Shown here in pieces: positions 1-10,647 of a stretch of 10,647 bases of DNA (position 1 is its first letter; each line of letters begins with the position of its first letter). Source of the stretch: Flavobacteriaceae bacterium (GTDB taxonomy: Bacteria > Bacteroidota > Bacteroidia > Flavobacteriales > Flavobacteriaceae); assembly GCA_030590765.1 (NCBI GenBank), contig JAUVCP010000039.1:1-10647 (forward strand), in the 5' to 3' direction. Under the pieces are notes generated by a model. The model was not told the DNA's origin, ran no database searches, and was given only the letters and a program-made list of their open reading frames with translations. The translations under genes were made by a program, and so were the position numbers.

Positions 1-1
1 G

Positions 2-448
2 TCAGAACTATTACGATATATGCTTTATCGAACGAATGATGACTTTGTTAAGTTAAATAATGAGTTGGATTATATTCAGAATTATTTAAAGTTGCAAAGA
101 CTTAGAATTGCTAATAATGAAAATGTAACTTTAAATATTCACGGCAATATTACAAATCAAAAAATAAGACCTTTACTTCTTATTTCATTTATTGAAAATG
201 CATTTAAATATGGAACAGATTTTAAAGGAAACACAATGGTTGATATAGATATTTATGTTAACGAAAATGAATTTAAATTCAACTGTATTAATTTGATTGG
301 TAATTCAAAAAAAGAGGATGGTAATTCGGGTATAGGAATTAAAAACACAAAAGAAAGATTAGAATTATTGTATCCCGAAAAACATGAACTAATTGTTGAA
401 AACGATGGGGAGTACTTTAAGTTATTCTTAACTTTAAATTTAGATTAA
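2..448 (+). CDS. LytS/YesM-type sensor histidine kinase, C-terminal part (5' end outside window)
   Basis: This is the C-terminal 148 residues of a membrane-type sensor kinase of the LytS/YesM family (His_kinase plus HATPase). The reading frame is open to the window edge, and the codons before the first internal ATG (position 20) read SELLRY. That is the usual sequence just after the phospho-accepting histidine region, so the ATG at 20 is not the start. Visible parts are the helix ELDYIQNYLKLQRLRI, an N-box with PLLLISFIENAFKYG, and a G-box with GIGIKNTKERLELLYP, which together form the ATP-binding domain. The H-box and sensor segment lie upstream of the window. Its stop codon directly abuts the ATG of the response regulator, so the two are almost certainly co-transcribed partners. 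The family is clear; the signal sensed is unknown. Confidence 0.93.
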   Translation, partial: SELLRYMLYRTNDDFVKLNNELDYIQNYLKLQRLRIANNENVTLNIHGNITNQKIRPLLLISFIENAFKYGTDFKGNTMVDIDIYVNENEFKFNCINLIGNSKKEDGNSGIGIKNTKERLELLYPEKHELIVENDGEYFKLFLTLNLD

Positions 449-1174
449 ATGCGCTGTGTAATTATAGATGATGAACCTTTAGCGATTGATGTAATAGAAA
501 ATTATGTTAATCAAGTTGGCGGATTGGAAATTGTTGCTAAATGTACTAATCCTTTAGAAGCAATTACAATTTTAAATAAAAAACAGGTAGATTTAATTTT
601 TTTAGATATTGAAATGCCTAATCTAACCGGAATAGAACTGGTTAAAACCTTAGATAATATTCCTCAATTTATTTTTACTACTGCTTACCCTCAATATGCT
701 TTGGAGGGTTTTGATTTGAATGCGACAGATTATTTGGTTAAACCAATTCCGTTTAATAGGTTTTTAAAAGCTATTTCTAGGGCTAAAGAAAAGTATGAAC
801 TTGAAAACTCATCTTTTAACCATCTAAAACCATTGCAGCCTGAACAAAGAGAGGTGAAAAATGATTTTATTTTTGTAAAGTCAGAATACGATAATGTAAA
901 GATAAATACTAAAGATATTAAGTATATTCAAGGGCTTAAGGACTATATTAAAATATATATTGTAGATTCAAATAAAGCAATCTTAACACTTTCGAGTTTT
1001 AAGGATATACAGGATAAACTCCCTGCTAGTCAATTTATAAGAGTCCATCGGTCATATATTGTTAATACTTCATTTATCAAATCTGTTCAAAAAACAAAAA
1101 TTATAATCGATGATATTCGTATTCCGATTGGCGAAACCTACAAAGATGAGGTTTTAAAGCGGCTGGGGGTTTAA
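449..1174 (+). CDS. LytTR-family response regulator
   Basis: This is a DNA-binding response regulator of 241 residues, the usual length for the LytR/AlgR type. Residues 1-120 form the receiver domain: acidic pocket D7-D8, phospho-accepting D53 in LIFLDIEMP, T78 and K98 in DYLVKP. Residues 139-241 form a LytTR DNA-binding domain, with the typical FIRVHRSYIVN stretch at 196-206. It begins directly after the TAA of the kinase gene with no spacer, so it is probably the cognate partner and translationally coupled. It is expected to be phosphorylated by that kinase and to bind promoter DNA in the cytoplasm. The next gene, an outer-membrane receptor, starts 104 bp downstream and is a reasonable but unproven target. 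Confidence 0.95.
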   Translation: MRCVIIDDEPLAIDVIENYVNQVGGLEIVAKCTNPLEAITILNKKQVDLIFLDIEMPNLTGIELVKTLDNIPQFIFTTAYPQYALEGFDLNATDYLVKPIPFNRFLKAISRAKEKYELENSSFNHLKPLQPEQREVKNDFIFVKSEYDNVKINTKDIKYIQGLKDYIKIYIVDSNKAILTLSSFKDIQDKLPASQFIRVHRSYIVNTSFIKSVQKTKIIIDDIRIPIGETYKDEVLKRLGV

Positions 1175-1278
1175 ACATCATTTTTACTTTTACTTTTTTT
1201 ATCTAAAATAATTGGGCTTATTTATAAAAAAATCTTCTTTCAACAAAATTACTGTAGACTATTAAAGTTTAAATATGC

Positions 1279-3600
1279 ATGAATAGATTTATAATATCAC
1301 TTATCATAATACTTTTTTCGCTTGCTGCAAGTGCGCAGCAAAAAAATACTATTAGCGGGACTATTACTGATGCTGCAACTGGAGAAACATTAATTGGAGC
1401 TACAATATTGATTAAAGAATTACCTCACACGGGAACCACCTGTAACGATTATGGTTATTATTCAATTACCTTACCAGAAGGACAATATACTTTAGAGGTT
1501 AGTTTTATAAGTTTTATAAAAGTTGTTAGATCGGTAAATCTGAATAAAAATAAAAAAATTAATATAAAACTTGAAGATGACACAAGTGTTCTTGATGAAG
1601 TTGTAATCAGTACCGAAAAGAAAAATGAGAATATAGTATCAGAAAAGATGGGTGTAGAACAAATGAAGATCAGAGATATTAAAAAAATTCCAGTTTTGTT
1701 TGGTGAGCAGGATATTATTAAAACCCTTGCTTTGACTCCAGGTGTTAAAACTACCGGAAACGGTAACGGAGGCATGTTTGTAAGGGGTGGAAATAATTCT
1801 CAAAACCTTATACTTTTAGATGAAGCAACAGTATATAATTCAAGCCACCTTATGGGATTTTTCTCTACCTTTAACAGCGATGCTATTAAGGATCTAACAC
1901 TTTATAAAGGGACAGCTCCAGCAGAATATGGAGGTAGAACTTCTTCGGTTATGGATATCAAAATGAATGAAGGCAATAATCAAAGTTATCATGTTAGTGG
2001 TGGTATAGGTATAATTTCTTCTAAATTGAATATTGAAGGTCCTATTATAAAAGATAAAGGATCATTCTTAGTAAACGGTCGCCGTACTTATGCCGATTTA
2101 TTCTTAAGGTTGTCAAAAGATGATAATATTAATAAAAACAAATTGTATTTCTATGATCTTAATGCAAAGGCAAATTACAAGATCAATGACAATAATCGAA
2201 TTTTTATTTCGGGATATTTTGGAAGAGATGAGGTGTCGTTTCAGGAAAAATTTGGAATAGACTGGGGTAATGTTACAGGTACTTTAAGATGGAATCATAT
2301 TTGGAACAATAAACTGTTTAGTAATACCTCGTTAATTTATTCTGATTATGATTATAAAGTTGCTATTACCGAAGGGGACGATGATTTTAGTTTGACCTCG
2401 GTAATTAAGAACTGGAATTTAAAACAAGATTTTCAGTATTATTTGAATAATAAAAACACTTTTACTTTTGGCTTTAACCTTCAATATCAAACAATAACAC
2501 CAGGACAAATAGATGTATCAGAAGGCTCTAATATTATTCCTGTTGAACTTGAAGATAGATTTGCATTGGATAATGCATTGTTCTTTAGCAATGATTGGAA
2601 ACCCAATAATAAATTAAAAATTACTTATGGATTACGATTAAGTTCTTTCAATTTACTCGGTCCGGGTAATTTTTACTCTTATAATGATGATGGTAAAGTT
2701 ACCGATACTATAGCCTATAAATCAAGGGAAGTTGTGAAAACCTATTTAAATTTAGAGCCTCGAATAAATGCAGCCTATATTTTAAATGAATCAACATCAA
2801 TAAAGGCATCCTATACTAGAAACACACAGAACCTACATCTTATACAAAACTCAAATTCATCTACTCCAACTGATATATGGATCTCATCGAGTAATAATAT
2901 CAAACCAGAGATAAGTGATCAGGTAGCTATTGGGTATTTTAAGAATTTTAAAAATAACGAATACCAGTTTTCTGGTGAATTGTATTATCGCTGGATGCAA
3001 AACCAAATCGATCTGAAAAACGGTGCCGAAATAAGAGCAAATGAATTTATTGAAGGAGAATTGCTTTTTGGGTCTGGTAGATCATACGGAATGGAATTGA
3101 TGCTAAAAAGAAAATACAAAAAATTAAATGGATGGATATCTTATACTTTGTCAAGAACTGAAAGGCAAATAGAAGGGATAAACGATAATAATTGGTATCC
3201 GGCAAGACAAGATGCTACACATGATATTTCGGTTGTAGGTATTTATGACCACAGTAATAAATGGAGTTTTTCGGCAACATGGGTCTACAATACCGGTAAT
3301 GCAGTAACTTTTCCGAGTGGTAAATATGAAATTGACGGTGGTGTTGAATTCTATTATACAGAAAGAAACGGATACAGAATGCCAGCATATCACAGGTTAG
3401 ATCTGGCCGCAACCAAATATATCAAAAGATCTGATAAGTTTGAAAGCAGTTTGAGTTTTTCATTGTACAATGCTTACGGAAGAAAAAATGCATACGCAAT
3501 TGATTTTGAAACTGACGCTGATGATTCATCAAGAACAATCGCAGTAAAAACATATTTATTCACTTTTATACCTTCCATATCGTATAATTTTAAATTTTAG
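1279..3600 (+). CDS. TonB-dependent outer-membrane receptor with carboxypeptidase-like N-terminal domain
   Basis: This is a 773-residue outer-membrane transporter. Residues 1-19 are a Sec signal peptide (hydrophobic run ending SASA before Q20). Residues about 23-108 form a carboxypeptidase-regulatory-like beta-sandwich (ISGTITDAATGETLIGATI) ending in the LDEVVIS motif that precedes the plug. The plug follows at about 125-230, with IIKTLALTPGVK, GMFVRGGNNSQNLILLDEA and YKGTAPAEYGGR. The rest is a beta-barrel ending in phenylalanine (SYNFKF), as expected for BAM-dependent insertion. The ATG is the first in-frame start before the signal peptide. A DUF4249 lipoprotein gene follows one base after the stop, a common arrangement in Bacteroidota. 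Uptake would be powered by TonB-ExbBD; the substrate cannot be told from sequence. Confidence 0.93.
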   Translation: MNRFIISLIIILFSLAASAQQKNTISGTITDAATGETLIGATILIKELPHTGTTCNDYGYYSITLPEGQYTLEVSFISFIKVVRSVNLNKNKKINIKLEDDTSVLDEVVISTEKKNENIVSEKMGVEQMKIRDIKKIPVLFGEQDIIKTLALTPGVKTTGNGNGGMFVRGGNNSQNLILLDEATVYNSSHLMGFFSTFNSDAIKDLTLYKGTAPAEYGGRTSSVMDIKMNEGNNQSYHVSGGIGIISSKLNIEGPIIKDKGSFLVNGRRTYADLFLRLSKDDNINKNKLYFYDLNAKANYKINDNNRIFISGYFGRDEVSFQEKFGIDWGNVTGTLRWNHIWNNKLFSNTSLIYSDYDYKVAITEGDDDFSLTSVIKNWNLKQDFQYYLNNKNTFTFGFNLQYQTITPGQIDVSEGSNIIPVELEDRFALDNALFFSNDWKPNNKLKITYGLRLSSFNLLGPGNFYSYNDDGKVTDTIAYKSREVVKTYLNLEPRINAAYILNESTSIKASYTRNTQNLHLIQNSNSSTPTDIWISSSNNIKPEISDQVAIGYFKNFKNNEYQFSGELYYRWMQNQIDLKNGAEIRANEFIEGELLFGSGRSYGMELMLKRKYKKLNGWISYTLSRTERQIEGINDNNWYPARQDATHDISVVGIYDHSNKWSFSATWVYNTGNAVTFPSGKYEIDGGVEFYYTERNGYRMPAYHRLDLAATKYIKRSDKFESSLSFSLYNAYGRKNAYAIDFETDADDSSRTIAVKTYLFTFIPSISYNFKF

Positions 3601-3601
3601 T

Positions 3602-4423
3602 ATGATGAAAACATTTCCATATAATAAATTTTTATCTATAGCTGTTATAGTAGTTTTTTTAGCTTCCTGTACCGAAGAAATTGTTGTGAATTTAAATTCT
3701 TCAGATTCGCAGATTGTTATTGAAGGAAACGTGTCTTCTGATGGAGAATTTTCAATAATTAAGATATCAAAATCTGTTGATTTTAATGAAAGTAATGATT
3801 TTCCTAAGGTTGAGGGAGCCCTTGTGACACTTGGGGATAATCTTGGAAATTTAGAAATTTTAAATGAAACATCATCAGGTGTTTATTCAACTTCATCATT
3901 ATTAGGTGTAATAGATAGAACCTATTTTTTAACTGTTGATACAGGAGGAAACACCTTTACATCCACGTCAGTTTTACCTAAGCAAGTTGATTTTGGATCA
4001 TTAGAAATCGAAGAAAGTGAAACGGGAGGAGGTGGGCCTGTTGGTGAAGAAGAAAGTTCAAATTATGATGTATTTGTAACATATAGTGATCCAGAAGGTG
4101 AAAAGAACTTTTATCGCTTTATAGAAATAGTTAATGATAAAAAAGAAGGAGTTTATGTTTTTGATGATCGACTATCAGACGGTCTCAAAGTAAAGCAAAA
4201 TTTGAGAAGAAGAGGTCGGGATTATAAACCAAATGATTCTGTTCAAATAATAATGCAATGTATTGATGAAAATGTATATAATTACTTTTCAAGTTTTGGT
4301 ACTACTGAAGGCAATCCTTTAAACACATCAACCCCTGCAAATCCAAATACAAATATTAAAGGAGCTGTTTTAGGTTATTTTAGTGCTCATACTGTTGAAG
4401 CAAAACAAGAAAAAATCAACTAA
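3602..4423 (+). CDS. DUF4249-family outer-membrane lipoprotein
   Basis: This is a 273-residue lipoprotein. A type II signal peptide ends in the lipobox LASC, with the lipidated cysteine at residue 23. It is followed by TEE, an acidic stretch resembling the lipoprotein surface-export signals of Bacteroidota, so surface exposure is possible. The family assignment rests on the N-terminal IVIEGNVSSDGEF segment, the LPKQVDF region, and the C-terminal signature NTNIKGAVLGYFSAHTV, which I recognise from DUF4249 proteins. A glycine- and glutamate-rich insert lies near residues 139-152. The gene starts one base after the receptor stop; a second ATG lies one codon on. It is very likely an accessory component of the adjacent receptor, perhaps in substrate capture. 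The biochemical role of the family is unknown. Confidence 0.85.
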   Translation: MMKTFPYNKFLSIAVIVVFLASCTEEIVVNLNSSDSQIVIEGNVSSDGEFSIIKISKSVDFNESNDFPKVEGALVTLGDNLGNLEILNETSSGVYSTSSLLGVIDRTYFLTVDTGGNTFTSTSVLPKQVDFGSLEIEESETGGGGPVGEEESSNYDVFVTYSDPEGEKNFYRFIEIVNDKKEGVYVFDDRLSDGLKVKQNLRRRGRDYKPNDSVQIIMQCIDENVYNYFSSFGTTEGNPLNTSTPANPNTNIKGAVLGYFSAHTVEAKQEKIN

Positions 4424-4446
4424 ACTGTTTACAATTACAAGTTTAG
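4420..4446 (+). terminator. Possible hairpin terminator after the DUF4249 gene
   Basis: An imperfect stem pairs CTAAAC (4420-4425) with GTTTAG (4441-4446) and continues as TGT (4426-4428) with ACA (4437-4439) past one bulged A, around an 8-nt loop. It overlaps the stop codon and is followed by the weak T-rich run TCTTTTAT. The stem is poor in GC, so strength is uncertain. Its position at the end of the receptor-lipoprotein unit supports a terminator role. Confidence 0.4.
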
Positions 4447-4467
4447 TCTTTTATATATAATTCTGAT

Positions 4468-4491
4468 ATTATGTACATTAATGTACATAAT
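4468..4491. promoter_or_regulatory. Perfect 24-bp palindrome, candidate operator
   Basis: The 24 bases centred between 4479 and 4480 are an exact inverted repeat. They consist of two copies of the self-complementary octamer ATGTACAT (4471-4478 and 4481-4488) separated by TA and flanked by ATT/AAT. Such symmetry suggests a site for a dimeric or paired-dimer regulator. It ends three bases before the ATG of the doubtful small ORF at 4494 and lies about 400 bp upstream of the GLPGLI gene. No regulator can be assigned, and chance AT-rich symmetry is possible but unlikely at this length. Confidence 0.45.
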
Positions 4492-4493
4492 TA

Positions 4494-4727
4494 ATGTTAT
4501 TCATAAAATGGTTCAATCAAATTTTTTCAGAGTCTGTCTATACATTTTACCTGTTTGTATATCATATTTTTAAAAGTTTTTTATTGGTGGTAAATTTGTT
4601 CTATAAATTAATTAATATTTTTTCTTTTAAACTACCAGCTTACAATGTGCCTGTTATCGACAGTAGTCAAACAAGCGAAGAAACCTATGATGAAGGTGAA
4701 AAACCAAGTAATATTGATAGAATGTAG
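4494..4727 (+). CDS. Small hypothetical membrane-like protein (doubtful)
   Basis: This is an open frame of 77 codons. The first 50 residues are rich in Phe, Leu, Ile and Tyr and could form one membrane helix (about 15-45). The last 27 are polar and acidic (SQTSEETYDEGEKPSNIDRM). That switch to a soluble, charged tail argues mildly for a real protein, because a random AT-rich frame would not be expected to change so sharply. Against it: there is no recognisable family, no evident ribosome binding site, and a start only three bases after the palindrome. I do not recognise it and cannot suggest a function. It may also be spurious. Confidence 0.3.
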   Translation: MLFIKWFNQIFSESVYTFYLFVYHIFKSFLLVVNLFYKLINIFSFKLPAYNVPVIDSSQTSEETYDEGEKPSNIDRM

Positions 4728-4749
4728 GTTTTGAGTTGTTAAGGGGATG

Positions 4750-4840
4750 AAAGGTTGAGTTTTTTTAAAGTTTAATTCCAACTTATTGGTTAAACAATTT
4801 AAATTACCTTTTACTTTAAATTGAAATTAACTCAACCTTT
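4750..4840. repeat. Nested inverted-repeat structure upstream of the GLPGLI gene
   Basis: A perfect 12-bp inverted repeat, AAAGGTTGAGTT (4750-4761) and AACTCAACCTTT (4829-4840), encloses a second one, TTTAAAGT (4764-4771) and ACTTTAAA (4813-4820). Inside these sits a small hairpin, CCAA-CTTA-TTGG (4778-4789), flanked by TTTAA and TTAAA. The whole could fold as a long leader stem-loop, or be a short MITE-like insertion with 12-bp terminal repeats. No target-site duplication is evident. It ends 47 bp before the GLPGLI start codon, so it may affect expression of that operon. Confidence 0.5.
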
Positions 4841-4887
4841 TTTAAACCAAATTGCTCCATACAAGTCAAACTATAAATCCTAAAATT

Positions 4888-5724
4888 ATGAATACAAGAA
4901 TTTTTTTTACATTAAGTCTTATTCTTTTAACAAGCTATTTAACTACTGCACAAAATTTTCAGGGCAAAGCGTATTATGCTTCAAAATCGAATTACGATAT
5001 AGACTTGAGTAACGGAGAGATGCCTCAAGAAATAAAGGATAGAATAAAACAGCGCATGAAAAGTATGTCTTCAAAAAGCTTTATTCTTGAATTTAATAAC
5101 GATGTTTCACTTTATACCGAAGAAGAGAGATTAGAACAAGCAAATCAACAAGGATTTGGAGGTATGAGAATGATATTAAGTGGTCAAGATGACGGGAATT
5201 ATTATAAAAATATTTCAGAAAAAAAATACACAAATCAAAAAGACCTCTACGGTAAAATTTTTCTTGTAAAAGATTCTTTAAAGCAATTTGACTGGAAACT
5301 TGAAAACGATATAAAAACCATTGGTAATTATACTTGTTTTAAAGCTACTACTGCCATAGTTAGTTACAAACCAAAACTTCCATTTAATCGAAATTCTGAT
5401 GAGAAAGAGGAAGATGAAAAAGAGGAGTCTGAGCCTGAAATTATACTTGTTACAGCTTGGTATACATTAGATATTCCTATTAAACAAGGCCCTGGTAGGT
5501 TTTGGGGTTTGCCCGGTTTAATTTTAGAGGTTCATACAGAAAACAATGTTTTATTATGTACAAAGATTCAATTAGAAAGAGGGAATAAAAAAACAGTTAC
5601 ACAACCAAAAAAAGGAAAAGTTGTTAATCAGGATGAATACAACAAGATTAATAAAGATAAACAAAAAGAATTACAAGAAAGTTTTAGAAACAGAAGAGGT
5701 TCAGGTGGAAGGTTTAGAAATTAA
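4888..5724 (+). CDS. GLPGLI family protein
   Basis: This is a 278-residue exported protein of the GLPGLI family, named after a motif present exactly here at residues 207-212 inside GRFWGLPGLILEV. A signal peptide covers residues 1-21 (hydrophobic core, then TTAQ). An in-frame TTG 36 bp upstream would only add a polar extension before the signal peptide, so the ATG at 4888 is preferred. Other typical parts are GKAYYASK after the signal peptide, FDWKLENDIKTIGNYTCFKAT, and VTAWYTLDIP just before the motif. Oddities are an acidic tract at about 171-184 and an Arg/Gly-rich tail. The family usually sits next to an outer-membrane receptor gene, as here: the next gene starts three bases after the stop. 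It is probably periplasmic or at the outer membrane; its molecular function is unknown. Confidence 0.92.
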   Translation: MNTRIFFTLSLILLTSYLTTAQNFQGKAYYASKSNYDIDLSNGEMPQEIKDRIKQRMKSMSSKSFILEFNNDVSLYTEEERLEQANQQGFGGMRMILSGQDDGNYYKNISEKKYTNQKDLYGKIFLVKDSLKQFDWKLENDIKTIGNYTCFKATTAIVSYKPKLPFNRNSDEKEEDEKEESEPEIILVTAWYTLDIPIKQGPGRFWGLPGLILEVHTENNVLLCTKIQLERGNKKTVTQPKKGKVVNQDEYNKINKDKQKELQESFRNRRGSGGRFRN

Positions 5725-5727
5725 AAA

Positions 5728-8454
5728 ATGAATTTATATATATTTAAATATCGACTGTCAATCTTTTTTCTTGCAGTATCATCTTTTGTTTTTTCACAAG
5801 ATGTTAAATTTTCAGGTACTGTAACAGATAGTTTAGGAAGGCCATTAGAGTTGGCAAACGTAATTGCCTTAAATAAATTTACAAACAAACTGGCATCTTA
5901 TTCTATCACTAATAATAAAGGTGAATATAAAATCAATTTAACTTCACAAAACACCTACAGCCTAAAAGTTAGTTTTGTTGGTTATCAATCCATTAATTAC
6001 GAAATTGATATTCCTGAAAAGAGTGACGATATTACAAAAGATTTTGCGATGTATGATGATAAATCAATTTTAGACGAAGTTACTTTGACATACGAAATGC
6101 CAGTAACCATTAAAGGAGACACTATTGTTTATAATGCAGATTCATTTAATACCGGAACAGAAAAAAAATTAAAAGATGTATTGCAAAATTTACCGGGTAT
6201 AGAAATTAATGATCTAGGGCAAATTGAAGTCGAAGGTAAACAAGTGAAAAAAATAATGGTAGAAGGGAAAGATTTTTTTGATGGAGATTCAAAATTGGCA
6301 ATAGAAAATATTCCTTCTGATGCAATTGACAAAGTAGAAGTTTTAAAAAATTATAGTGAGATTAATCAACTTAGCGGTATTACGAATAATGAAGATGATA
6401 TAGCAATCAATATCAAATTAAAAGAAGGTAAAAAAGAGTTTTGGTTCGGGCAGGTTTCTGCCGGTGGTGATTTAGATAAACACTATATAGTAAACCCTAA
6501 ACTATTTTTTTACAGTCCCGAAAAGAGTATCAACATCATTTCAAATATTAACAATATTGGAGAAATATCGTTTGACAGACGCGATTATTTTAAATTTACA
6601 GGTGGTTTTAGAAACCTTTCAAGTGGTTCAGGTACTTCTTTAGATCTTTCTACAGGTTCTGATGATTTGGGATTTACAATGTTAAAAGATAATAAGGCAA
6701 ATGAAATTATTTCAAAATTCGGTGCTGCAAACTTTAGTTATTCTCCAAATGAAAAATGGAATATGAGTGGTTTTTTTATTTTTTCAGATACAGATACTGA
6801 ACTATTGGAAATTACTACAAAAAATTATGTTGACGGGGCCAAAGAATTTTTAGAAACAAAATCTGATCAGGATAATACTTTAGCCTTAGCCAAATTTAGT
6901 TCTTCGTACAATCCAAATATTAATTTCCAGTTAGATTACGATATTTTAGTAAAATTATCAGACCAAAAAGAAAATAGCGAATTACTATCTTCCTTTGCAG
7001 ATGTTGAGAATAAAATAAAAACATTATCAAAAGATAATCCTTTTTCTATCAACCAAAATCTGAATACGTATCTTACTTTGAATGAAAAAAATATTTTTGC
7101 AGGTAAATTCCAATATTTACTTTCAGAAGAAGTACCATTTTACAACGCCACTTTTTTAGGATTAGGAGTTGATCCTAGCCCTAATGAATTACCATTTTCA
7201 ACCATTTTTCCTTATGATACTAATCAGGAGGATTATAGTGTCAATCAAAATAAAACTATTAAAACCAATAAGTTTGAAGGAAAAATTGATTACTATTTTT
7301 TATTAAATAACAAGAGCCATTTAAATTTTACCGTTGGAGGCATAATTAGTGAAGAAAAATTGAACACTAATATATTTCAAATATTGGATGATGACAGTGC
7401 ATATGATTTTACCGAACCTGAATTTAATAATGATATAACTTATAATTTTACTGATATTTTTTTTGGTTTACATTATAAATTTGTTTTAGGAAAATTTACA
7501 TTTGATCCGGGTTTGAGTGTTCATAATTATAACACAAAAAATAAACAGTTTGGTACTACTAAAGAGGATAATGAAACTAAATTCCTTCCTGATTTTTATG
7601 TAAACTATAAATTTAAAGCTTCAGAAAATTTACGTTTTACTTATGCAATGACCACGCATTATCCGAGTATCACTAAATTGGCTGAAGCTTATGTTTTTAA
7701 TAATTATAATTCATTATTTTTAGGAAACAGAACTATTAAAAACGGACTGTATCAAAATTATAAATTGTTCTATTCAAGTTTTAGCCTGTTTAATTTTACT
7801 AATGTATCAGCTTCTATAAATTATTCAAAAAAGAAAGATGCCATAAAAAACAAAGTATATTTTGAAGAAATAAATAGGGTTTCAACACCAGTCAATTCAC
7901 CCTTTGAAGATGAGTCAATATCAGGGAATGCTCGCTGGCAAAGAACTTTTGGAAAGTATAAAGTATCTCTTAGAGGGAATTTTGCATGGTCAAATTATTA
8001 TAATTTGGTTAATGATGATATAAATGAATCAAATGAAATAAGACAGGATTATACAGCTAGTGTTTCCACAAATTTCAGAAAAGGACCAAATTTTGAAGTG
8101 GGCTACAAGTGGATGAAAAATGACTATGATTACGGCACATCTGAAGGAGCTTATTATACAAACAAACCATTTGCCAGAATGGATGTTAAATTTTTAAAAG
8201 ATTTTATGTTTAATGTAGATTATAGCTATTATAATTATTCTGATGGAGATAATACCCTAAACACATATTCATTTTTAGATGCTGATTTAACTTACCAAAA
8301 AACAAACAGCAAATGGGAATTTAAATTAGGGTTAACCAACATACTTGATACAGAATCTATAAATCAAGATAGTTTTAACGAATTATTTATAAGCACAACT
8401 GAATACTTTGTTCAACCTCGTTATGCTGTATTTATTGTGAAATATAATTTATAA
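5728..8454 (+). CDS. Outer-membrane beta-barrel / TonB-receptor-like protein with carboxypeptidase-like domain
   Basis: This is a 908-residue outer-membrane protein. A signal peptide ends at about residue 23 (FVFS before Q24). Residues about 27-110 form a carboxypeptidase-regulatory-like domain (FSGTVTDSLGRPLELANV). A plug-like segment at about 125-235 contains KGDTIVYNADSF, LKDVLQNLPGIEI and KIMVEGKDFFDGD. That segment is characteristic of the Bacteroidota outer-membrane beta-barrel family related to TonB-dependent receptors. The remainder is barrel with alternating aromatic and polar strands, ending VFIVKYNL. It is co-oriented with and three bases from the GLPGLI gene, so the two probably form a transcription unit and may work together. 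Whether it needs TonB is unknown, as is its substrate. Confidence 0.92.
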   Translation: MNLYIFKYRLSIFFLAVSSFVFSQDVKFSGTVTDSLGRPLELANVIALNKFTNKLASYSITNNKGEYKINLTSQNTYSLKVSFVGYQSINYEIDIPEKSDDITKDFAMYDDKSILDEVTLTYEMPVTIKGDTIVYNADSFNTGTEKKLKDVLQNLPGIEINDLGQIEVEGKQVKKIMVEGKDFFDGDSKLAIENIPSDAIDKVEVLKNYSEINQLSGITNNEDDIAINIKLKEGKKEFWFGQVSAGGDLDKHYIVNPKLFFYSPEKSINIISNINNIGEISFDRRDYFKFTGGFRNLSSGSGTSLDLSTGSDDLGFTMLKDNKANEIISKFGAANFSYSPNEKWNMSGFFIFSDTDTELLEITTKNYVDGAKEFLETKSDQDNTLALAKFSSSYNPNINFQLDYDILVKLSDQKENSELLSSFADVENKIKTLSKDNPFSINQNLNTYLTLNEKNIFAGKFQYLLSEEVPFYNATFLGLGVDPSPNELPFSTIFPYDTNQEDYSVNQNKTIKTNKFEGKIDYYFLLNNKSHLNFTVGGIISEEKLNTNIFQILDDDSAYDFTEPEFNNDITYNFTDIFFGLHYKFVLGKFTFDPGLSVHNYNTKNKQFGTTKEDNETKFLPDFYVNYKFKASENLRFTYAMTTHYPSITKLAEAYVFNNYNSLFLGNRTIKNGLYQNYKLFYSSFSLFNFTNVSASINYSKKKDAIKNKVYFEEINRVSTPVNSPFEDESISGNARWQRTFGKYKVSLRGNFAWSNYYNLVNDDINESNEIRQDYTASVSTNFRKGPNFEVGYKWMKNDYDYGTSEGAYYTNKPFARMDVKFLKDFMFNVDYSYYNYSDGDNTLNTYSFLDADLTYQKTNSKWEFKLGLTNILDTESINQDSFNELFISTTEYFVQPRYAVFIVKYNL

Positions 8455-8554: not shown

Positions 8555-8673
8555 CTATTTTCCGATACAGAAAGTAATTATAGTTGAGAATCAGTTATTT
8601 ATATGGTGCGGGCAACAAATAGGCAACAGCTTTACTGGATAAAAGGAAGAAAAAAACAAATAAGAGTAGATTA
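8555..8673 (-). repeat. Attachment-like direct repeat, copy 1 (mnmE 3'-end core plus element arm)
   Basis: This aligns without gaps to 9988-10106 at about 76% identity (about 91 of 119 positions). Blocks of near-perfect identity are 8562-8581, GGCAACAAATAGGC at 8611-8624, and 8657-8673 (one mismatch). On the - strand the first 18 bp (8555-8572) read TTC TGT ATC GGA AAA TAG, that is F-C-I-G-K-stop. This is the conserved C-terminus of MnmE and the known 18-bp target of SGI1-type islands. An in-frame stop at 8591-8593 shows no longer mnmE fragment is present. The remaining arm contains GGCAACA twice (8611-8617, 8622-8628), which could be recombinase arm-binding sites. I infer that this is the outer attachment site of an inserted element. 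Confidence 0.7.
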
Positions 8674-8771
8674 TAGATTTACTTTATTATTTGACATTAA
8701 TAATTCAGATAATACTTTTCCTAATTGAAAGTCATTTTTTGACTCACATAATTATCATCAGTTATTTATTT

Positions 8772-9908
8772 TTATCCGCTTGTATTTAATTTTTCAAACG
8801 TTTTAACTGATTCTATAAATAACTCCCAAAAGTCCAAATGAAACTGATAACTATTATTTTTTACCAATATTTCATGTTCTGTAAGCATTTCTTTTTCGTT
8901 AGGATGAAATTTCCTATTTTTTGAGTCCGGATCATGAAGATAAAAGAATTCCGGGTGAAATTGCGGAGCAATAACATTTGGGTATTTCTTATGAATTAGC
9001 ATCTCTATCACTTTTCCATCCATGGAAGTAGCTGCCACTTTAATATCTTTTCCTAAGTTTTTAACTGCCTGGTGGTGACTACTTGCAACTATAGGATTGA
9101 ATTCATTTTTTAGCTTAAGTTTTTTTCTTAACTCTTTATTGATAATTTTTACATGATGAAAATTGTGATTATTAATCTCTGCTTCCGGATAAAGAAGTTT
9201 GTTGTAGTTTTTATGCATTTGATCTGTACCAAGATTTATTACATCTTCTACATAATTAAGCCCATAAATATCTGAAGGTATATCTTGATACATATCTCCA
9301 CCGGTTGCAACATTCATGGTTTGCATACCAAGGCATATTCCCATCACGGGATAATTTGGTTTTTCTTCTAAAAAATTATTAAAATCACCATTTTGATTTC
9401 CTCCTAATAAATGAAAAAGGAAACTTAATTCAAACAAATGTCTATTGGGAGTTTTAATTCCAACGGTTAGATTTGTCTTTTGCCCATAATAAACCGGAGG
9501 AATATCCCATCCACCAAAAAATATAATACCATCAGAATTTTGGAATACATCCCGAAAATCATCTGTACATTCATTTTTTTTATAAATATTGTCGATATCT
9601 AGGTTGCCATATATCTCCTTAAATTTTATACATTTTATATTGTTTTCTTTGACAAACTTTTTGGCTTCGCTATATTTTATTTCACTTTTGGTGTAAAAAA
9701 CAGCGAGATATTCAATGCCTTTAGCATTGATAACACCATTCTTAGTCATATATGCTATAGACTTTAAATAAAACACATCCGGATTGATAAGAACAATTTT
9801 TATTTTTTCGGTGTTGTCTTTATCCGTATTGTTAACGGGAATTATTGGAGCTGAATATGATTTTCCAATTATAAATAATATTGAAAAAAGAAGTACAATT
9901 CTTTTCAT
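8772..9908 (-). CDS. Exported class-I glutamine amidotransferase-like hydrolase (PuuD / peptidase C26 type)
   Basis: This is a 378-residue member of the gamma-glutamyl-gamma-aminobutyrate hydrolase family. The catalytic triad is visible: nucleophile C192 in MGICLGMQ, and H318 with E320 in APQFHPEF. Also typical are FFGGWDIPPVYYG (the family's GG-D-P-YG element), the TGGDMYQDIP segment after the nucleophile, and SSHHQAVKNLG. It is longer than the cytoplasmic PuuD-type enzymes (about 250 residues). It also starts with a signal peptide (residues 1-19, ending SYSA), so it probably acts in the periplasm or outside the cell on gamma-glutamyl compounds. The true substrate is unknown. It stands alone on the - strand between the two attachment-like repeats, convergent with the barrel gene, which suggests acquired cargo. 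No strong flavobacterial promoter motif is seen upstream. Confidence 0.88.
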   Translation of the reverse strand: MKRIVLLFSILFIIGKSYSAPIIPVNNTDKDNTEKIKIVLINPDVFYLKSIAYMTKNGVINAKGIEYLAVFYTKSEIKYSEAKKFVKENNIKCIKFKEIYGNLDIDNIYKKNECTDDFRDVFQNSDGIIFFGGWDIPPVYYGQKTNLTVGIKTPNRHLFELSFLFHLLGGNQNGDFNNFLEEKPNYPVMGICLGMQTMNVATGGDMYQDIPSDIYGLNYVEDVINLGTDQMHKNYNKLLYPEAEINNHNFHHVKIINKELRKKLKLKNEFNPIVASSHHQAVKNLGKDIKVAATSMDGKVIEMLIHKKYPNVIAPQFHPEFFYLHDPDSKNRKFHPNEKEMLTEHEILVKNNSYQFHLDFWELFIESVKTFEKLNTSG

Positions 9909-9987
9909 AAGTTATTGATTTTATACGAATTTACTAAATATAATTGAGCTGTATAAAAAAAGTGCTTAACAAACAAAGAAAAGGTAC

Positions 9988-10106
9988 TTATTTGCCGATA
10001 CAGAAAGTAATTATTATTGATAATCAAATACTTACGGGGCGAAGGCAACAAATAGGCTACATATTTCAGTGATAAAAATCTAAAAAAGACAAATAAGAAT
10101 AGATTA
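9988..10106 (-). repeat. Attachment-like direct repeat, copy 2 (mnmE 3'-end core plus element arm)
   Basis: This is the second copy of the 119-bp repeat, in the same orientation as 8555-8673 and without indels. Its - strand core (9988-10005) reads TTC TGT ATC GGC AAA TAA, again F-C-I-G-K-stop. It differs from copy 1 at two of 18 bases: one synonymous glycine codon change and one change of stop codon. An in-frame TGA lies at 10024-10026, at the same offset as in copy 1. The shared GGCAACAAATAGGC block is at 10044-10057 and the end block is at 10090-10106. It ends 25 bp from the stop codon of the Argonaute gene. I read it as the junction between the hydrolase module and an Argonaute-bearing module. 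Confidence 0.7.
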
Positions 10107-10131: not shown

Positions 10132-10647
10132 TTACAAAAACCACAATTTATCTTTTCCATAACTAGGTATATCTGTTCCTTTAAAATTGGGTACAATTTC
10201 TGCTAACATTTCTGGATATTTGATAGTTACTGGTACATTTTGTTGTCGTAACGATTTCCAGTATAATCGGCTGAATTGATACACTTGTTCAATTAGTAAT
10301 TTATTTGTCTTTACATCATCTAAGGCTCCCTCTGTAGGACTTGAAATTGTCAATTTGATTGGAAAAGAATAACTTTCACCATAAGGATATTTTATATCAT
10401 TGCTATATCTACTATTATTAAATAATAAATATTGATTCCATCCAATTTTTATAAATGTACCGCTCTGGGGCATTAGTTTTCCATGCCAATCAGTATCAAA
10501 AGCAATAATATCTTCTGAGTCAGTTTTATTAATATTTACAATATAAAGAGGACATCCCAATTCTAATCTATTCATCTTATTAATAATAGGATCTATCTCT
10601 TTTTTACTCATTTCTTTGTAAAAATGAATAACTACTTTATCAGGATT
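10132..10647 (-). CDS. Prokaryotic Argonaute, C-terminal part of the PIWI domain (5' end outside window)
   Basis: This is the last 171 residues of a pAgo. The frame is open to the window edge, and the 12 residues before the first internal Met (codon at 10609-10611) are NPDKVVIHFYKE, a typical PIWI strand, so that Met is not the start. Other recognisable parts are the QVYQFSRLYWKSL helix, PVTIKYPEMLAEIVPNF, and a C-terminal DKLWFL. In known Piwi proteins the terminal carboxylate helps bind the metal and the guide 5' phosphate. By recalled alignment, the third catalytic Asp position (YRDG in Ago2) is Glu in FYKE, and the fourth (YAH/YAD) is Glu in KYPE. This suggests a slicing-deficient protein of the short or long-B type. 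It acts in guide-directed defence against foreign nucleic acid. If it is a short pAgo, its APAZ-effector partner must lie upstream, outside the window. Confidence 0.85.
   Translation of the reverse strand, partial: NPDKVVIHFYKEMSKKEIDPIINKMNRLELGCPLYIVNINKTDSEDIIAFDTDWHGKLMPQSGTFIKIGWNQYLLFNNSRYSNDIKYPYGESYSFPIKLTISSPTEGALDDVKTNKLLIEQVYQFSRLYWKSLRQQNVPVTIKYPEMLAEIVPNFKGTDIPSYGKDKLWFL

Follow-up and report, generated by a model that had tools for sequence, protein, structure and literature searches.

Gene content and paired repeats of the window

The window, by which we mean the whole stretch of 10,647 nucleotides that was analysed, comprises the entire contig C382 of a Flavobacteriaceae genome (G000; 2.44 Mb in 400 contigs, 67% complete). 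Its larger left part (1-8454) is occupied by a group of genes on the + strand encoding the end of a histidine kinase, the LytTR regulator of this two-component system, a TonB-type receptor, DUF4249 and Porph_ging proteins and a second TonB-type receptor-like protein, which has a 50% identical paralogue on contig C278 of the same assembly. No tRNA was found in the window. To the right of this group lie two copies of a direct repeat, with a Peptidase_C26 gene as the sole gene between them and the end of a prokaryotic Argonaute (pAgo) gene 25 bp to the right of the right copy. The features are as follows, with the predicted roles of the repeat copies discussed below.

8555..8572, − strand: core of the left copy, F-C-I-G-K-stop, predicted displaced mnmE 3′ end
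8556..8673, − strand: left (outer) repeat copy, predicted distal attachment site of the C26 module; 91/118 identical to the right copy
8611..8627, − strand: arm repeat GTTGCCTATTTGTTGCC of the left copy
8772..9908, − strand: Peptidase_C26 / class-I glutamine amidotransferase-like protein, 378 aa (Pfam PF07722, 3e-28)
9924..9959, − strand: promoter-side block, common to genome G021 and the contig end of genome G016
9988..10005, − strand: core of the right copy, F-C-I-G-K-stop
9989..10106, − strand: right (inner) repeat copy, predicted distal attachment site of the pAgo module, also forming the border of the C26 module on the mnmE side
10044..10060, − strand: arm repeat GTAGCCTATTTGTTGCC of the right copy
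10132..10647, − strand: prokaryotic Argonaute, C-terminal part of 171 aa, truncated at the contig end (PADLOC PDLC02385, 2.1e-88)

The pAgo piece matches positions 508-674 of the 674 in the PDLC02385 profile, and plasmid records gave a single match to it, at 27%. Rfam aligned SNORD108 end to end within the pAgo reading frame (10317-10387, − strand, 37.7 bits, E 4.7e-5), which is under the gathering score of 46 and probably a chance match.

A repeat search of the window returned direct repeats at 8556-8673 and 9989-10106 (118 nt, 77%), and a direct count confirmed this as the best-matching pair of the window with 91 of 118 positions identical; in simulated windows (first-order Markov, n = 12) the best pair in each reached only 61-64 matches. 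Conservation is arranged in blocks (leader, 9/10 and 9/10; CCTATTTGTT, 10/10; TGATT.TCAA, 9/10; core, 10/10 and 7/8), and between some of them only 5-6 of 10 positions are identical. Read on the − strand, a copy consists of an A+T-rich leader, a direct repeat GT(T/A)GCCTATTTGTTGCC, about 15 nt, TGATT(A/C)TCAA and TTACTTTCTGTATCGG(A/C)AAATA(G/A), and the stretch GGCAACAAATAGGC is common to both copies. The core letters are TTCTGTATCGGAAAATAG in the left copy (8572-8555) and TTCTGTATCGGCAAATAA in the right copy (10005-9988); both follow TTC TGT ATC GGN AAA TAR and encode F-C-I-G-K-stop, with an in-frame stop seven codons ahead of the core F in each. The earlier note on this DNA had described an ungapped pair of about 119 bp conserved block by block, an F-C-I-G-K-stop core on the − strand of both copies and a stop codon just upstream of each, and these descriptions hold.

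The genome-wide search suggested in the same note, carried out by BLAST with the left copy against the entire assembly, found two places only, the query itself (E 1.1e-56) and the right copy (E 4.4e-20), and no third copy. No Rfam family matched the repeats at E values up to 1. Both copies are intergenic and flank single genes, as might also be expected of an RNA element, or of a repeat of dispersed or regulatory type, with no tie to integration, but with just two copies in the assembly and no Rfam match this explanation was rejected, and a counterpart that shares the arm letters and is linked to an integrase in another genome of the order (G602, described below) makes it most improbable.

The repeat core and the 3′ end of mnmE

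Among 22 genomes of the genus, 15 contain mnmE. The proposal that the core is the conserved end of MnmE is borne out by these genes: FCIGK-stop closes the protein in 13 gene ends of 12 genomes, the end in genome G016 reads FCVGK-stop, and contig ends truncate two further copies. Of 21 distinct mnmE ends, 18 have an Asn or Lys codon before F and one has a Ser codon, while two Acidobacterial genes have Thr (ACT). Both window copies read ACT TTC at this position; the mnmE-like stretch is therefore no longer than some 15 bp, and what lies to the left of it is DNA of the element. The stretches TTACTTTC and GAAAGTAA are inverted repeats flanking TGTATCG, and we infer from this arrangement that they are half-sites with TGTATCG as the overlap.

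mnmE was found neither on the window contig nor in the 67%-complete assembly, so its adjacency to the window is a prediction: it would lie to the right on the − strand, and G016 has the same order starting from mnmE. On the other side, homologues of the outer-flank receptor occur in 18 of the 22 genus genomes, the own genome included; in G011 and G004 the homologue shares a contig with mnmE at a distance of about 0.5 Mb, and elsewhere the homologues are located on other contigs. In none of these relatives was the outer flank found next to mnmE, and the empty site that the earlier note had envisaged, with the mnmE end joined to the sequence left of the repeats, was not found for the window. Integrations at a secondary chromosomal site, with cores that merely resemble the target, would agree with the position of this flank and with the lack of mnmE on the contig and in the assembly; SGI1 has such a site according to the excerpted text of PMC2297512, and genome G071 carries a site with the same arms and another core. 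Yet Gly-Lys-stop is kept in both window cores, as expected for a displaced mnmE end, and the order in G016 begins at mnmE itself, which leaves a secondary site quite unlikely.

Elements beside mnmE in other Bacteroidota

A site pattern made from the window copies, ATTATCA-N6-16-ACTTTCTGYATCGG, was scanned over genome contigs and returned 26 stretches, 20 of which were taken as like sites in Bacteroidota, with varying arm letters (TGTACC, TTTGAACC and others). Loci L074, L076, L082 and L084 were set aside as having no such context, and L081 and L090 as mnmE's own end in Acidobacteria. Gly-Lys-stop, which the pattern does not demand, follows the core in 17 of the 20 like sites, and in 23 of 26 when the window copies and the sites of G016, G013, G602 and G011 are added. 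Ten of the loci (L070, L071, L073, L075, L079, L087, L088, L092, L093, L095) come from rumen or hindgut Bacteroidales MAGs with near-identical sites, the cores of which are FCIGK-type, the stop missing in some; a link to mnmE was not seen for these ten.

In 8 of the 20 like sites mnmE is located upstream on the same contig and strand; no such link was seen for the other 12, and mnmE sits on another contig in at least three of these. The distance from mnmE to the site is 8.5 kb in Cerina litoralis, 9.2 kb in Nafulsella turpanensis, 20 kb in a Prolixibacteraceae MAG (which has a second mnmE elsewhere), 28 kb in Chitinophaga arvensicola, 29 kb in Carboxylicivirga sediminis and 68 kb in a Winogradskyella; the remaining two linked sites belong to G063 and the Cyclobacteriaceae MAG G457. 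An integrase adjoins mnmE in the six named genomes, and none was found by mnmE in G457 and G063. The same arm letters occur at both element ends in Cerina, Nafulsella, Prolixibacteraceae, Winogradskyella and G013 (TGTACC), in Carboxylicivirga (TGTCCC) and in G602 (TTGTTGCC), and no clear arms were seen in the Chitinophaga element.

Searches with other queries gave few further matches. The 118-bp repeat matched in 15 of 100 relatives, the own genome included, and all matches other than L003, L004, L008 and L010 were dropped, as they resemble chance hits or matches in tRNA regions. A strict core pattern was found in 2 of 397 genomes of the family (the own genome and Cerina) and an arm pattern in 4 of 395 genomes of the order (the own genome, G602, G071 and G262); the G262 match, which falls within a coding gene, was discarded. 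Viral contigs gave no match to the att pattern. In G071 the TTGTTGCC arm repeats (L064 10056, L113 7316-7359) accompany a different core, and one arm set adjoins a type I restriction-like locus; a related integrase that uses another target may act at these sites.

The closest partner of the window is an intact 21.8-kb element in G602, a genome of the same order, which carries the window's arm repeat at both ends. It starts at mnmE (C39:15700-17091) and continues with three TTGTTGCC arms, an HTH_17 gene, an integrase gene (17712-18818), a DUF3987 gene, a gene for a 682-aa pAgo, further cargo that includes efflux functions, and an SNase gene; at the far end TTGTTGCCTATTTGTTGCC is followed by Y-C-I-G-K-stop near 38,922. 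Over 171 aa this pAgo and the window piece share 49% identity. Two genomes of the same genus show related arrangements. In G013, mnmE is followed by an HTH gene and an integrase gene, with the site 26.2 kb away, and in G011, the mnmE of which is 93% identical to that of G013, 7.9 kb separate the gene from a decayed site; Pfam recognised no integrase in the five main ORFs of this inner region. Outside the site, G011 and G013 have two genes in common, one for a methyltransferase (92%) and one other (91%). On the inner side blastn gave no match between them, and the alignment turns good from the core on. Such mnmE-anchored elements with the same site in other genomes, mostly with an adjacent integrase, support the earlier interpretation of the window as a tandem of islands.

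The integrase of G602 has Arm-DNA-bind_5, Phage_int_SAM_5 and Phage_integrase domains. It matched 573 phage and 335 plasmid records, with less than 45% identity among the matches listed, and one phage record falls in the 60-80% identity band, so that the enzyme may have a link to phages. The own assembly contains five integrase matches, none on the window contig, and the best match of the assembly to the G602 enzyme reaches 28% identity. In a phylogenetic tree the eight mnmE-adjacent integrases (those of the six linked genomes, G013 and G602) form one side of a branch against 19 others (98/98, 99% of 200 bootstrap trees), 14 of these 19 coming from the same genomes as the eight. The others were 20 integrase places picked among the matches listed plus one from the own genome, less two of the 21 rows (G467 C1a and G468 C1) in which the longest ORF was not an integrase. 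The Chitinophaga row forms a long branch. In a Pedobacter nototheniae genome an mnmE-adjacent integrase is broken into two reading frames (L103 2336-3530) and located by restriction-like genes; it was left out of the tree.

Probable stacked modules at the mnmE tail

Both window copies contain all features of the distal sites, namely the arm repeat, a TGATTATCA-like block and the FCIGK-stop core, and very probably they are distal attachment sites that remain from two integrations, one after the other, at the mnmE 3′ end, the modules being stacked. In the proposed mechanism a tyrosine recombinase of the Bacteroidota clade tied to this site would recombine a short core, probably TGTATCG (7 bp, flanked by the two half-sites), which lies within the codons for Cys-Ile-Gly in mnmE. 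The incoming DNA would supply a new mnmE end, and the old one (Gly-Lys-stop) would come to lie behind the arm repeats, at the element's far end. The same would happen when a second element inserts on the mnmE side; with repeated insertion there, modules would therefore stack with the older one outside. The window is best read as an inner pAgo-bearing module that runs off the right end of the contig, towards the predicted mnmE, and an outer 1.4-kb module that has one Peptidase_C26 gene and would have lost its integrase. Points against this reading are the absence of mnmE from the assembly, the position of the receptor homologues away from mnmE, the 12 like sites with no link seen, the two linked genomes with no integrase by mnmE, and the findings on the C26 gene in G021 and G016 given below.

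The C26 module retains two att sites and contains no integrase, and the absence of integration genes between such sites is what characterises a CIME; the pAgo module is incomplete, as the contig ends within it. Arms on the mnmE side, present in G602, Cerina, Nafulsella and others, are missing from the C26 module, with no TTGTTGCC-type repeat from the right core up to its gene. Because the module is short and lacks both an integrase and these arms, its simplest reading is a CIME-like remnant. Its order recurs in G016, where the mnmE end is followed by two genes, a site with one arm unit and, at the contig end, a C26-type promoter block identical to that of the window in 34 of 36 positions. Among the loci compared, this 36-mer (up to 6 mismatches) occurs only before the C26 genes of the window and G021 and at the G016 contig end; a search of the G016 assembly did not find the C26 gene. 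The G021 homologue is 90% identical as protein and 89% as DNA over 8768-9959. At its locus (G021:C520, L062 9297-10488) the homologous stretch, made up of the gene and about 50 bp upstream, has sharp ends and adjoins a release-factor gene, and no site was found beside it. This copy indicates that the C26 gene has moved by some route.

Other short units without an integrase occur at mnmE. In G063 the gene ends at L063 8411 and more FCIGK-stop copies follow near 9026 and 10014, marking off units that are about 0.6 and 1.0 kb long. No clear palindrome block or arms accompany the first extra copy. The G457 unit of 1.9 kb contains one unknown gene and a HigBA-like pair. These units, together with the exact arm repeat and core that the left window copy retains despite the integrase-less module, would suit a non-autonomous C26 cassette moved in trans by the integrases of full mnmE elements rather than a decayed island. 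We consider this unlikely, as the mnmE-side arms are missing, the G021 copy has no site and the same cassette was not seen moving between mnmE sites. The wider idea is a doubtful one, namely that the mnmE 3′ end is a cassette port of Bacteroidota in which modules of one to a few genes, closed by sites of about 118 bp, are exchanged in trans by a dedicated integrase clade. The corresponding picture of an integron-like stack without attC sites, with a peptidase, a toxin-antitoxin-like pair and perhaps pAgo as its modules, is likewise improbable.

The Cerina litoralis (G284) and G602 elements at mnmE have HTH_17, Phage_int_SAM_5 integrase and DUF3987 genes, a combination which we take to be that of a known Bacteroidota type of integrative element; what distinguishes the elements described here from this type is mnmE as the target. 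Stacked islands at this gene are already known. According to the excerpted text of PMC2297512, SGI1 has the last 18 bp of thdF as its integration site and can be present there in tandem arrays, in agreement with the parallel drawn in the earlier note, which named the last 18 bp of mnmE (trmE/thdF) as the target. MGIVchHai6-type islands use trmE, where different islands in tandem are 'not a rare occurrence' in the wording of an excerpt of PMC7449626, and the accretion of CIMEs with IMEs or ICEs is a subject of the review PMC5704250, as its excerpt indicates. SGI1 and MGIVchHai6 of the Gammaproteobacteria would share with window-type elements the target, the 3′ end of trmE/thdF (mnmE), Int-mediated integration and the stacking, but they belong to another phylum and differ in arm repeats and cargo; the elements described here are SGI1-like in behaviour, and membership is not claimed. 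Compared with CIME/IME accretion, the outer unit of the window is a single gene and the inner unit is seen from its cargo end only. Among the matches listed in open-licence PMC, judged by title and start of the abstract, there was no paper on mnmE islands in Bacteroidota.

The mnmE-tail hotspot of SGI1-like islands is hereby extended to a Bacteroidota-wide set of elements with mutually grouping integrases. The signature of an arm repeat and an FCIGK-stop core picks out island ends even in broken assemblies. Since an Argonaute is tied to a site-specific element, defence cargo at the mnmE site can be surveyed, and the displaced Gly-Lys-stop would be a readable insertion record, by which the order of insertions becomes testable.
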